Below are positions 1 through 5,729 of a stretch of DNA of 8,484 nucleotides, piece by piece (the stretch's first letter is position 1; each line of letters begins with the position of its first letter). The translations under genes were made by a program, and so were the position numbers. This DNA comes from Candidatus Thioglobus sp. (lineage in GTDB: Bacteria; Pseudomonadota; Gammaproteobacteria; PS1; Thioglobaceae). Where the stretch lies: contig QOAH01000066.1 of NCBI GenBank assembly GCA_003978185.1, positions 1-8,484 on the forward strand. Reading direction: 5' to 3'. A model generated the notes under the pieces. That model was not told where the DNA came from. It saw only the letters and a program-made list of their open reading frames with translations, and did not search any database.

Positions 1-1275
1 GACATCAACCCAATTGATTTAGTCGTGGTGAATCTCTACCCTTTCCAAGCAACCATTGCCAACCCTAATTGCACCCTAGAAGATGCGATTGAAAATATTG
101 ATATTGGTGGCCCGGCAATGTTGCGTTCAAGCGCCAAAAACCATGCATCAGTGACTGTTGTAGTTGATGCGTCAGATTACCAAACGGTAATCGACGAAAT
201 CAATGCAAATGGTGATACGACCCTAGAGACTCGCACTAAGCTTGCACTTAAAACGTTTGAGCATACAGCGCAATATGATGGTGCCATTGCTAATTATCTT
301 GGCAAAGGCGAAGATGGTTTTTCGAATACTATGAACTTACAATTCAATAAAGTACAATCTATGCGCTATGGTGAAAACCCACATCAAAATGCCGCATTTT
401 ATGTTGAAAATAATATTACCGAATCTTGTGTAGCTTCATCAATACAGTTTCAAGGCAAGGAGATGTCTTACAACAACATGGCCGATGCCGATGCTGCACT
501 CGAATGTGTACGCAGTTTCAATGAGCCTGCTTGCGTAATTGTTAAGCACGCTAACCCTTGTGGTGTGGCTGTTAGAAAAGACATTCATACAGCTTATTTA
601 GATGCCTTTAAAACAGATCCAACTTCTGCATTTGGTGGCATCATTGCTTTTAACCGCCCATTGGATAAAAATACGGCGCAAGATATTATCGACAAGCAGT
701 TTGTTGAAGTCATCATCGCACCACAAGTAGACGATGACGCTAAAGAAGTGCTGTCAGCTAAACAAAATGTCCGTGCCCTAGAGTGTGGCGATCTTAGTAC
801 CTCTCAACCATCACTAGACTTTAAACGAGTAACGGGCGGACTGTTAGTGCAAGACAAAGATCTAGGCGTTATCACTGAAGACGACATCAAATGTGTCAGC
901 GAAATCCAACCTACCGCTGAGCAAATTAAAGATTTATTATTCGCTTGGAAAGTAGCCAAAACCGTTAAATCAAATGCCATTGTTTATGTGAAAAACGAAA
1001 TGACAATTGGTGTTGGTGCGGGACAAATGTCTCGTGTTTATTCAGCCAAAATTGCCGGTATTAAAGCTGCTGACGAAGGCTTAGTCGTCGAAGGTTCAGT
1101 AATGGCCTCAGATGCCTTCTTCCCATTCCGTGATGGCATTGACGCAGCAGCAGAAGCTGGCATCAAAGCCATTATTCAGCCGGGTGGATCAATGCGTGAT
1201 AACGAAGTGATTGAAGCCGCTAATGAACACGGCATTGCCATGGTGTTGACGGGCATGCGTCACTTCAAACACTAA
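1..1275 (+). CDS. purH: Bifunctional AICAR transformylase / IMP cyclohydrolase PurH, 5'-truncated by the window edge
   Basis: PurH catalyses the last two steps of IMP synthesis: it formylates AICAR with 10-formyl-THF, then closes the ring. The reading frame is open from base 1 ([15 protein letters not shown]), so the true start lies outside the window. The family is about 530 residues; 424 are visible, so roughly 90-100 residues of the N-terminal cyclohydrolase (MGS-like) domain are missing. The rest of that domain is seen as NLYPF and [10 protein letters not shown]. The transformylase domain is complete: the catalytic Lys-His pair is in [12 protein letters not shown] (residues 182-183 of the visible part), followed by [55 protein letters not shown] and the usual C-terminal [14 protein letters not shown]. 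No frameshift is seen. It stops one base before a palindromic repeat. purD does not follow it, unlike in E. coli. Confidence 0.97.
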
Positions 1276-1403
1276 TTTCTAGAGGTGCTTTTCGCCTAAC
1301 TCTGCGTTACAAACCAAACTTCAGAATGGTCATTTACAATTTGTAAACTCCCAACCCTTGTTCGGCTTATGCCTTGATTTAAACAAAAATCATTCTCTAG
1401 AAA
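1276..1403. repeat. 128-bp imperfect palindrome (MITE-like element) abutting the purH stop
   Basis: The segment opens with TTTCTAGAG (1276-1284) and closes with the exact reverse complement CTCTAGAAA (1395-1403). Its exact middle holds a second perfect inverted repeat, TTTACAA-T-TTGTAAA (1333-1347). Between these, the two arms pair imperfectly (for example TGCTTTT..TAA..TC on the left against the reverse complement of GA..TTA..AAAAATCA on the right), so the whole unit could fold into one long hairpin. No open reading frame fits and I see no target-site duplication. This is the shape of a small non-autonomous palindromic element. It could also act as a purH mRNA 3'-end structure. Whether it is dispersed in the genome cannot be seen here. 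Confidence 0.6.
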
Positions 1404-1421
1404 AGGTTTATCAAATAGTCC

Positions 1422-1549
1422 CAAAGGACAGGCTTCGCGCTCCATATTTTTATTATAAGCCAGGTCTTGTATCAGTCGTTTATAAGTAATAAACTCCTAA
1501 TTCTCGTTTGTCTTATACCTCAATCTGAATAAAAATTACCGCCTATAAT
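1422..1549. repeat. Diverged second copy of the palindromic repeat
   Basis: Bases 1477-1536 align without gaps to 1331-1390 (offset 146) with 43 of 60 identities. Of the 17 differences, 14 are transitions. The left arm (about 1432-1476) is much weaker, matching around GCTT..CGC and a few later blocks. The outer ends are extrapolated from the offset, because the terminal TTTCTAGAG/CTCTAGAAA is not preserved. It reads as an older, decayed relative of the unit at 1276-1403. No gene is seen in 1276-1655; apart from the two repeats and the terminator the stretch looks empty. Confidence 0.4.
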
Positions 1550-1596
1550 TTTTTTGAATTTCATGACAGTGCTTTAACAGTTTTTTATAATGCGAC

Positions 1597-1636
1597 AAAA
1601 AAAAGAGCCGACCATTGAACGCAATGGTCGGCTCTT
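1597..1636 (-). terminator. Intrinsic terminator of the Met-rich protein gene
   Basis: On the minus strand a perfect 14-bp stem (1636-1623 with 1616-1603, GC-rich core GAGCCGACC) encloses a six-base loop that can add one more G-C pair. It runs straight into eight T residues (complement of 1597-1604). It starts 19 bases after the stop codon of the gene at 1656-2084. On the plus strand there is no T-run after the hairpin, so it acts in one direction and does not terminate purH. Confidence 0.92.
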
Positions 1637-1655
1637 GAATGCTTAGACTTGTAGT

Positions 1656-2084
1656 CTATTTCATCATTTCTTTTGCTTGTTCAGGTGTTATATTCTGCAT
1701 CAGTTCTAAATGCGCTATTGTCATAGTCTGCATTGCACCCAGCTGATCCGGTGTAACACTAACCATCATATCTCTCATCATCACCATTTGATCGGCAGAC
1801 AGCTTTGACATCATTTCTTGCATATCCTGCATCTGCTTTAGTGTCATAGACTTCATCATATCCAACATCATTTGTTTCTGTTCAGTTGAGACGGTTTTCA
1901 TCATTTCTTGCATCAACTGCGTTTCCTGTGGGGACATTTGACCCATCATGCTTCCAAATGCATCCTTTTGTTCAGGAGTCATATCTGGAAAACCTGCGGG
2001 CATACCTGCAACAGCAGACCCATACATAGTTGCGGATAGAATCGATACCATTAATAATTTCATACTGTTCTTCAATAATTTCAT
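1656..2084 (-). CDS. Small exported methionine-rich protein with tandem LTxxQ-like 15-residue repeats
   Basis: No named family is recognised. The chosen ATG (2084) follows GGAG (2096-2093) with an 8-base gap; an in-frame GTG at 2126 has no such signal. The 142-residue product begins with a signal peptide (MKLLKNSMKLLMVSILSA.. then GSAVA, likely cut near residue 26), so export to the periplasm is expected. The mature 116 residues hold 27 Met, one His and no Cys. They are almost entirely 15-residue repeats: 35-49, 50-64, 65-79, 80-94, 95-109, 110-124 and a partial one at 132-142. Each opens with a hydrophobic residue, then S/T, and usually Gln at position 5 (MTPEQ, VSTEQ, MTLKQ, LSADQ, VTPDQ, ITPEQ; MSPQE deviates), and most carry a Met pair at 12-13. 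This recalls the LTxxQ motif of the Spy/CpxP periplasmic chaperones, here in tandem; Met-mediated copper or silver binding is another possibility. Both roles are inference. The gene is monocistronic with its own terminator. Confidence 0.85.
   Translation of the reverse strand: MKLLKNSMKLLMVSILSATMYGSAVAGMPAGFPDMTPEQKDAFGSMMGQMSPQETQLMQEMMKTVSTEQKQMMLDMMKSMTLKQMQDMQEMMSKLSADQMVMMRDMMVSVTPDQLGAMQTMTIAHLELMQNITPEQAKEMMK
1659..1982 (-). repeat. Seven coding repeats of 15 codons (last one partial) in the Met-rich gene
   Basis: The units follow [MVLI]-[ST]-x-x-Q, four variable residues with Met or Phe at position 9, then Met-Met at 12-13. Units 1-6 are contiguous and exactly 15 residues each. A 7-residue spacer (HLELMQN) separates unit 6 from the short last unit (11 residues), and unit 6 lacks the second Met of the pair. 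S/T-x-x-E/Q/D is a helix N-cap pattern, so each unit probably makes one short amphipathic helix. The nucleotide sequences have drifted, so this is an old protein-level repeat rather than a recent tandem duplication. Confidence 0.8.
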
Positions 2085-2085: not shown

Positions 2086-2212
2086 TTTTTTTCTCCAAAA
2101 ATAGTGATAAATAGCCTTATCTCCACCGGGATCTAAGATGTGAAAATGTATATTAACACAATATATCTTGGAATAATGAAGAATTATTTATATGCACTAT
2201 CTTTATAAATAG

Positions 2213-2244
2213 ATGAATACGGTATTGCCATGGTGTTTACTGGC
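2213..2244 (+). pseudogene. Remnant copy of the purH 3' end
   Basis: These 32 bases match 1223-1254 inside purH at 28 positions. Read in the purH frame from 2212 they give DEYGIAMVFTG against [11 protein letters not shown]. Three of the four differences fall on third codon positions, as expected for true coding descent. Similarity ends abruptly on both sides: nothing purH-like lies upstream in 2127-2212, and the MRHFKH end is absent. The copy ends three bases before the avtA stop codon (2248). It is best explained as the displaced end of an ancestral purH, or as one edge of an inserted segment. It is too short to encode anything. Confidence 0.7.
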
Positions 2245-2247
2245 GCT

Positions 2248-3501
2248 TTAAAAAACCTCTCGAAAAACAACCTCAAGACCTTTTCTTAAAGTTGTCTCAT
2301 TCTTAGCATAATTAATACGAATACATTGGTGTTGGTGTGGCCAGTTGTCATCCATGCCGATAAAGAAGTTATGCCCAGGAATGATGTAAACACCTTTAGC
2401 TTTGAGTTTTTGGTACAGCTCTTCTGAGGTGATTTCAAGCGTTGGAAACCAAATCCACATAAAAAATGCACCTTCAAGTTTGTGTAATTTGGCATTGCTA
2501 TTGGAAAATATTTCATCGAATAATTTAACGGCAATATCAGCCTTAGCTTGATAATAAGGTTTAACAATATGATTGGCTAATGCTATTAATTCATTATCTT
2601 TCACCATTCTAGTTAAAAGGTTAGGGCCAACACTACTAGGGGCAAGCGTCAAAATACCACTCATTCGGCTCATCGCCTCTATCACTGTCTGATTGGCAAT
2701 AACAATGCCCGTTCTAATGCCTGGTAAGCCAAGCTTAGATAGCGATAGGCATAAAATGGTATTTTCATTCCAGCTTAGTTTAGCATCGGTATAAATCGCG
2801 CCTGGAAAAGGATTGCCATAAGCATTATCAACAATCAATGGGATATCGTGAGTTTGGGAAATACTATCTAGTTTTTCTAGCTCATCATCAGTAATAACAT
2901 TGCCAGTTGGGTTGGTGGGACGGGACACACAAATAACACCAATATCTTCTTGCTTAAGTGTTTGCACTAATTTGTCAAAATCAATCTGATATTTAAATTG
3001 TTGACGCTCAAGCTCTTGAATCATAGGCTTTACCGCCACAAACATACCTTCTGATAAGCCCTGATCGGCATAGCCGATATATTCGGGCGCGAGTGGCAGC
3101 AGTACTTTCTTCTTCGTACCATCTGGCATATCACCAGCAAACAAATTAAATAGTGAAAAAAAGCTACTTTGTGAGCCATTGGTAATAGCAACATTGTCTT
3201 TATCCAAGTTCCAGTCATAATGTTCATTCAGCATTTCAACTAAAGCTTCAATAAACACCTCTGAGCCTTGCGGGCCATCGTAACACCCCAACATCTGATC
3301 GACACTAGAATCGTCAATCATTTTTTGTAACTCAGCCACAAAAATAGCATGAGCTTCGGGTATTAATGCAGGATTGCCACCACCCAGCATAATAATATTT
3401 TCATCATTACTATGGTTGGCTTTGCCCAAATCATCCATCAACTGAGTGATGCCAGAATAGCGGGTAAATTTTTGACCAAATTTTGAATAGTTTTTATTCA
3501 T
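2248..3501 (-). CDS. avtA: Valine-pyruvate aminotransferase AvtA
   Basis: This cytosolic PLP enzyme (fold type I) exchanges amino groups between valine or alpha-aminobutyrate and pyruvate/alanine, linking branched-chain and alanine pools. The 417-residue protein is full length (E. coli AvtA is 417 as I recall it) and matches it strongly: KFTRYSGITQLMDDL, IMLGGGNPALIPE, CYDGPQG, LPLAPEYIGYADQGL, CVSRPTNPTGNVITDDEL and PGHNFF. The PLP lysine is Lys256 in SLSKLGLPG. Other cofactor and substrate residues are Asn197 (PTNPTG), Asp225 (VDNAYG), Arg263 and Arg395 (CIRINYA). Start: ATG at 3501, with no clear Shine-Dalgarno. TTGAAA, 18 bases, then TATTTT, read on the minus strand just inside 3594, could be its promoter. 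It is divergent from the unknown gene at 3595. Its 3' end lies against the purH remnant, and no terminator is visible there. Confidence 0.96.
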   Translation of the reverse strand: MNKNYSKFGQKFTRYSGITQLMDDLGKANHSNDENIIMLGGGNPALIPEAHAIFVAELQKMIDDSSVDQMLGCYDGPQGSEVFIEALVEMLNEHYDWNLDKDNVAITNGSQSSFFSLFNLFAGDMPDGTKKKVLLPLAPEYIGYADQGLSEGMFVAVKPMIQELERQQFKYQIDFDKLVQTLKQEDIGVICVSRPTNPTGNVITDDELEKLDSISQTHDIPLIVDNAYGNPFPGAIYTDAKLSWNENTILCLSLSKLGLPGIRTGIVIANQTVIEAMSRMSGILTLAPSSVGPNLLTRMVKDNELIALANHIVKPYYQAKADIAVKLFDEIFSNSNAKLHKLEGAFFMWIWFPTLEITSEELYQKLKAKGVYIIPGHNFFIGMDDNWPHQHQCIRINYAKNETTLRKGLEVVFREVF

Positions 3502-3594: not shown

Positions 3595-4011
3595 ATGAGT
3601 ATAGAAAAAATTACTGCTTTTCCTGAAATCACTTTCGCCGTTGTTGAGGGTGAAGATCTTGTTTCCATTACCCAAGGATATTACGATATTGACAAGGTAA
3701 CAGAACACATACAAACCTGTATTGGAATGGTTAGAAAATACGAAAAAATGGGTTATTATAATTTAGCAAAACCTGAATTTATCAGTGAAGTTATCACCAC
3801 TTTTACCAATTTAGAAGTCAGTAAAAAAGACGTTATTCGTGCTAATAATTTTATGGAAATTTCGGGCTATGAATGTAATCGTGTGTGGCAACTGCCCGAT
3901 CAAATGAAAGTACAAGCCTCACAAATGCTACATGGTTTCTACATTACTTACGATACAGACAACTGGGAAGATTTTAGTATTGAGCCGATTGAAGATGAGG
4001 CTTCAAATTAA
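3595..4011 (+). CDS. Unrecognised acidic 138-residue protein
   Basis: I do not recognise this family. It is a soluble-looking protein with no signal peptide or membrane segment, and it is acidic: 24 Asp/Glu against 11 Lys/Arg, with a very acidic tail (DNWEDFSIEPIEDEASN). It has two cysteines (QTCIG, YECNRV) that are not in a CxxC pattern and many aromatics (QGYYDID, MGYYNLAKPEF, HGFYITYDTDNW). The regular hydrophobic pattern, acceptable codon use and tight fit between neighbours argue that it is real. ATG at 3595 is the natural start but has no clear Shine-Dalgarno. Upstream, TAAAAT (3563-3568) is a possible -10 with no good -35. It is divergent from avtA (93-bp gap), and its TAA shares a 4-bp TTAA overlap with the dbpA stop. 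Confidence 0.75.
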   Translation: MSIEKITAFPEITFAVVEGEDLVSITQGYYDIDKVTEHIQTCIGMVRKYEKMGYYNLAKPEFISEVITTFTNLEVSKKDVIRANNFMEISGYECNRVWQLPDQMKVQASQMLHGFYITYDTDNWEDFSIEPIEDEASN

Positions 4012-5525: not shown

Positions 5526-5529
5526 AATA

Positions 5530-5701
5530 ATTGTCTGTTGTGTTTGTAGTTGACTATATCCCCTGAGCCGATAAATAAACAACTAAGGAGATGAGATAGC
5601 TTACTATTGTGCAAGCCCACCTAGAAGTGGGAAGCCTGCGGTAATCTTCGAACTTCCGCCCTGCGCCTTCTTGGTTCAGGTTTCTTTCAGCGAGATACAA
5701 T
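5530..5701 (+). ncRNA. ssrS: 6S RNA
   Basis: 6S RNA mimics an open promoter and sequesters sigma70 RNA polymerase in stationary phase. The hallmark CCCCTGAGCCGATA of the gammaproteobacterial 5' strand is exact at 5560-5573. CCTGAGCC (5562-5569) pairs without mismatch, apart from one G-U, with GGTTCAGG (5673-5680). An outer closing stem can form from ATTGT (5530-5534) with ACAAT (5697-5701) and GTTG (5537-5540) with CAGC (5688-5691). The apical part contains the hairpin CCCAC-CTAGAA-GTGGG (5616-5631). Length is about 172 nt against 184 in E. coli. It lies directly upstream of fau, the same order as ssrS-ygfA in E. coli. The exact ends are inferred from pairing and are uncertain by a few bases. 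Confidence 0.9.
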
Positions 5702-5729
5702 GGACCCTTCTTATTTTTAGCACTTCAGA

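Follow-up and report, generated by a model that had tools for sequence, protein, structure and literature searches.

The 8,484-nucleotide window analysed here, from Candidatus Thioglobus sp., contains a short purH-like stretch lying against the convergent aminotransferase gene avtA. Judging from comparison with related genomes, this stretch is a purH 3' end which formerly abutted avtA and is now severed from purH, itself carrying another end. The features of the region are listed in Table 1.

Table 1. Coordinates of the features discussed, in positions of the window.
Feature	Position	Strand	Remarks
purH	1–1275	+	3' part only, 5' end beyond the window
purH 3' half	676–1275	+	94% identical to G084 (5' half 84%); looks like a recombined tract
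Spacer element 1	1276–1403		bounded by TTTCTAGAG and CTCTAGAAA; window 1270–1403 recurs at 92% identity in the purH flank of G050
Spacer element 2	1440–1549		in the purH 3' flank of G084 (89–90%) and G070 (81%)
Terminator-like hairpin with T run	1603–1636	−	behind the small gene
Small methionine-rich gene	1656–2084	−	within the purH–avtA spacer; 142 aa; 156 aa if the GTG at 2126, upstream, is the start
Orphan purH 3' end	2212–2251	+	33 bases (2212–2244) followed, after a 14-base gap, by GCTTTAA, which overlaps the avtA stop
avtA-like class I/II aminotransferase	2248–3501	−	PF00155; convergent with purH
"DUF" gene	3595–4011	+	function unassigned, no Pfam match
DbpA-like helicase and further genes	3' of DUF		
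6S RNA	5529–5710	+	RF00013, 60.1 bits

Genomes Compared

The family set comprised 83 genomes, searched with avtA and with purH. The purH gene was matched in 73 of them, the other ten giving no match at E 1e-60. The G017 copy, which ends at a contig end, was left out, and the set of purH tails consisted of 72 fetched 3' flanks and the window (n = 73). The flanks were scanned up to 3 kb; eight of the 72 were shorter, the shortest being 79 bases long. Among named records, Candidatus Thiodubiliella endoseptemdiera provided the best full-length relative of the window purH, with 88% identity over 416 residues, and the window probably belongs to its family; a broken proteobacterial contig reached 90% over 345 residues. 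On the downstream side of purH in Ca. Thiodubiliella (L001, 6250–6412), a stretch of approximately 160 bases with inverted ends AGAGACCTTTGCATAAATA looked MITE-like by eye. Further along the window, the 6S RNA sits just upstream of a gene resembling that of a 5-formyltetrahydrofolate cyclo-ligase.

The Orphan purH Tail

The repeat search aligned positions 1223–1254 of purH with positions 2213–2244, 28 of the 32 nucleotides being identical (88%) at a spacing of 990. The frame was kept and three of the four changes fell at third codon positions, which confirms the match described in the sequence-only reading. The fourth change affected a first base (CAC/TAC, H to Y). When the last 300 purH bases were compared, ungapped, with the spacer (1276–2247), the score was 20, and the best of 300 dinucleotide shuffles reached 12; with all of the purH sequence contained in the window as the query, the shuffle maximum was 14 (60 shuffles). 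The window also scored 20 when 149 purH flanks were scanned each with its own tail. With a profile of the 73 purH tails, the orphan scored 44.7 bits, and no more than 22.4 was reached in 73 control scans of the reverse strand. The match is short, as a chance resemblance would be, but the shuffle scores, the position flush with avtA, as for the purH end in G083 and G079, and the longer copy present in G084 make the probability of such a coincidence negligible.

It had also been claimed that what lies on either side of the 32 bases is unrelated sequence. This was true on the left side, where the copy can begin at position 2212 (GAT codon) and no similarity to purH was found beyond. On the right side the copy resumes after the gap, with GCTTTAA at 2245–2251 facing GCATTAA in the alignment with G084, G083 and G079. 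This piece of seven bases falls where purH and avtA have their stops, and it carries weight only by virtue of the position which it takes in this alignment.

The purH–avtA Junction in Related Genomes

In genomes G083 and G079 the end of purH overlaps avtA by 11 bases with no insert, each stop codon lying within the end of the other gene. Direct purH–avtA neighbours devoid of the segment 1276–2212, as predicted from the sequence, thus exist. In the G079 avtA (L218/L091), codon 15 of the aligned sequence is an in-frame TAA, and for this reason the 3' end of this gene alone was used here. In genome G084, whose purH protein is 96% identical to that of the window, 914 nt separate purH from the avtA stop and hold a relative of the small gene of the window. 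Flush with avtA lies a decayed purH tail, GATATTGCTACGATATTTACCGGCATGCGTCACTCCAAGCATTAA, of 45 bases including the stop, in the register of the purH end of G083 and G079. Its profile score was 53.7 bits (control maximum 22.4). The scan with its own tail gave only 15, the value of the best reverse-strand control and of L063, and the G084 orphan therefore stands on the family profile and on the alignment. The old end is kept downstream in the register of the neighbouring gene in both genomes, complete to the stop in G084 and with the gap in the window. The overlap in G083 and G079, together with the fuller orphan of G084, points to 2212–2251 as the former avtA-abutting end of purH. The idea of a displaced end, raised from the sequence of the window, is supported both by the existence of direct neighbours and by this second genome with a related insert.

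A full-length avtA match was present between purH and DUF in seven flanks (G084, G081, G078, G008, G083, G050 and G079), and in G070 avtA was reduced to a short remnant at this place. In 30 of the 72 fetched flanks, DUF was located within approximately 120 nt of purH and avtA was absent. In nine further flanks, purH and avtA stood 1.2 to 10 kb apart and DUF gave no match within the sequence retrieved. The distribution of avtA in the 83 genomes was patchy. Versions of DUF with 32–96% amino-acid identity occupy the same place in relatives.

The new end of the window purH reads MVLTG, a tail found in five of the 73 sequences (window, G084, G081, G050 and G040). The first four of these carriers have spacer parts in common. 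At the position of the L, F is retained in the two orphans and in the two genomes lacking the insert. An intact end resembling DEYGIAMVFTG had been anticipated; the exact string was observed in none of the 73 intact ends, and similar EYGI ends were present as NEYGIAMVFTG (G062) and NEYGIAMIFTG (G046), and also in G040.

The Spacer and the Small Gene

Element 2 of the spacer was found in the purH flanks of G084 and G070, and as an 18-base stub in G081. The stub is weak, the shuffle maxima being 26 for scores of 33 or 31 and, in the comparison with G070, 31 for a score of 35. Elsewhere in the 83 genomes, element 2 gave a single weak match of 38 bases (G034). From its presence beside purH in two genomes and this one weak match elsewhere, element 2 seems to go with a purH end, and the flank contained in the spacer seems to belong to a purH end. 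A dispersed-repeat origin of the spacer was dropped after searches of nine and then 83 genomes, as the matches adjoined purH except for the one in G034.

The same observations bear on a local origin of the repeat. A staggered or template-switching repair event might have doubled the last 54 or so bases of purH around an insert, in which case no donor purH would be needed. The same picture would be expected, with a full tail on either side of the insert, and both tail copies fit the same clade. However, 54 bases exceeds the usual target duplications of transposons, which are shorter, and element 2 lies beside purH in G070 as well, an indication that the new end came, or remained, together with a flank of its own. 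We regard such a local duplication as unlikely.

The only relative of the small gene among the 83 genomes was that of G084, at about 70% amino-acid identity and with a broken frame. A database of about 5.8 billion proteins yielded one relative of the small protein, 99% identical and on one contig. The protein has a signal-peptide-like start and repeated T/S-x-x-Q segments and is rich in methionine and glutamine; its single Pfam match was far below the cut-off. The Pfam search of this protein, P0001, the insert genes of G050 and G008, and DUF gave nothing above the curated cut-off. From the appearance of the sequence, our best guess is a periplasmic methionine-rich helical protein. In the hairpin behind the gene, two pairs appeared by eye to be changed on both sides in G084. 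Over window positions 1420–2060, which cover spacer and small gene, the identity with G084 was 82.5%, about the local background.

Apparently Different Histories of the Two Sides

The window and G084 purH genes, compared in steps of 75 bases, were 79–89% identical over the first 675 bases and 89–99% thereafter. In trees built on 8 to 13 chosen rows, the purH 3' half placed the window and G084 in one clade (support 100/99), and the window avtA grouped with those of the uninserted G079 and G083, with moderate support (93/94 and 84/89). The purH side and the avtA side therefore seem to have different histories. The ubiH tree, which was built without G083, G050, G078 and G070, also joined G084 to the window (95/99), a pairing absent from the dbpA tree. 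It is possible that the high-identity purH tract is a later exchange. The pairing of the window and G084 may also be the species history, with avtA as the odd one.

This last possibility leads to a serious rival of the reading that we prefer, in which the polarity is reversed. The purH end, its flank and the small gene would be native, and a fragment made of a purH tail, avtA and DUF would have come in from a genome with overlapping genes, by recombination on the DUF/avtA side and illegitimate joining upstream of avtA, bringing the orphan tail along. The frequent arrangement of DUF close to purH without avtA and the patchiness of avtA are in agreement with it. So is the association of the window avtA with the two overlapping-gene genomes when the purH 3' half and ubiH go with G084; because of the ubiH pairing, this rival was given more weight and the preferred polarity less. 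On the other hand, the small gene, present in only one of the 83 genomes, was never seen without avtA. In each of the window, G084, G081 and G050 the shared spacer parts occur together with avtA; in G070, element 2 is accompanied by a broken avtA. On balance we consider the reversed polarity rather improbable, at a level which still deserves attention.

Mobile Elements and the Question of an Attachment Site

A new end on the gene, the old end at the far border and an empty site in relatives resemble what integration at gene 3' ends leaves. This is the configuration observed here, and a site-specific element could have found an attachment site within the 3' end of purH, entered there and lost its integrase since. 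The other insertions in the purH–avtA gap, of 764 nt (G050), 480 nt (G008), 169 nt (G078) and approximately 2 kb (G070), differ in cargo and are without a detected tail remnant; they stand partly behind shared spacer elements. No tyrosine-recombinase motif was present in the open frames of at least 150 codons over 748 kb beside 150 purH ends. These correspond to 148 distinct ends, two genomes being counted twice, and the motif was used without a positive control. The profile scan, up to 3 kb, detected no orphan purH tail in the other 71 of the 73 flanks; tail-bounded insertions, expected at further purH ends if the site is a general target, were limited to the two flanks with related insert sequence. 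A search for two intact tail motifs in one genome was negative in 369 genomes of the class, with a weak pattern which matched in 56 only, once each. The attachment-like site proposed in the sequence-only reading thus finds no support beside these purH ends, and we hold integration at such a site to be very improbable.

In G070 (L154, 559–2407 and 2465–2800), where avtA is a remnant, the gap contains an inverse autotransporter beta-domain gene, and in G075, a close kin of G070, DUF starts 9 nt after purH. In a phage collection, nine records matched at 60–80% identity, but only within the purH portion of the query or at its very end, and revealed no element. In IMG/VR, 37 loci matched purH at 42–59% identity, which we read as remote purH genes or ones borne by phages; a search with avtA gave no relative.

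A Model for the Displacement of the purH End

We give about an even chance to the following sequence of events. In the ancestor, purH and avtA would have been convergent and overlapping by approximately 11 bases at their stop codons. The entering DNA, most simply a linear fragment from a related cell, would have consisted of the 3' part of a purH gene, its own downstream flank and the small cargo gene. Homologous recombination inside purH would have anchored the incoming piece, and its non-homologous side would have been joined illegitimately within the last 18 or so codons of the resident purH. The gene would thereby have gained a complete new end, with the old one left about 0.94 kb downstream, where it would still supply the stop region of the overlapped avtA. 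The stranded tail would have decayed since, by the 14-base gap in the window and by substitutions in G084. Since the two genes would have shared their last 11 bases, a simple insertion would have cut into one of them, and the shared end had to be doubled. We infer both the status of the purH-side DNA as the newcomer and the illegitimate joining step.

The families ComEC and DprA were found in five of the six relatives searched, which counts for the entry of DNA in this model; G084 was the one in which this search gave no ComEC or DprA match. Other observations count against it. No foreign origin is visible in the new purH end, which falls inside the variation of the same clade. The identity of the insert with G084, close to the local background, implies that the event is old and its junctions eroded. 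The arrangement of purH, flank and small gene with no orphan tail, as a donor might show, was found in no genome (72 flanks, 83 genomes).

More generally, and as a doubtful suggestion, overlapping convergent ends might act as a filter for insertions, with entry allowed only when the overlap is doubled; stranded 3' tails flush with the stop of a neighbour might be general fossils of insertion, and the orphan might be kept as the source of the avtA stop. The fossil described here shows how flanking DNA can be added beside a housekeeping gene with the gene unbroken, and the overlapping, displaced and eroded states are all visible among related genomes. Stranded 3' tails against convergent neighbours could provide a genome-wide measure of illegitimate insertion between overlapping genes.

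Comparison with Known Systems

Integrative elements that enter at the 3' end of a gene can supply a replacement end. The purH case resembles them in the doubling of the end at both borders and in the empty site of relatives; it differs from them in that neither an integrase nor a recurrence with tail copies was found. Homology-facilitated illegitimate recombination has been described in E. coli conjugation (Amarir-Bouhram et al. 2011, PMC3240628). In the account of the effector-immunity arrays of the Vibrio cholerae type VI secretion system, it is proposed as the origin of displaced effector ends and called putative (Kirchberger et al. 2017, PMC5361080). As these accounts present it, homology anchors one end, the other is joined without homology and the old 3' part stays downstream, as in our model; the purH case, unlike theirs, is deduced from a sequence fossil, with neither donor nor fresh junction seen. 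Displaced C-terminal ends are also known in rhs genes, for which homologous recombination with circular intermediates is proposed in the account of Jackson et al. (2009, PMC2935791). There, as in our model, the gene takes a new 3' end from the incoming segment and its former end comes to lie, silent, farther downstream. The rhs tips described in that account are variable, whereas purH encodes a conserved housekeeping enzyme and its new end hardly differs from the old one. The displaced purH end adds a clear, if small, example to a type of genome reshuffling which was known before.
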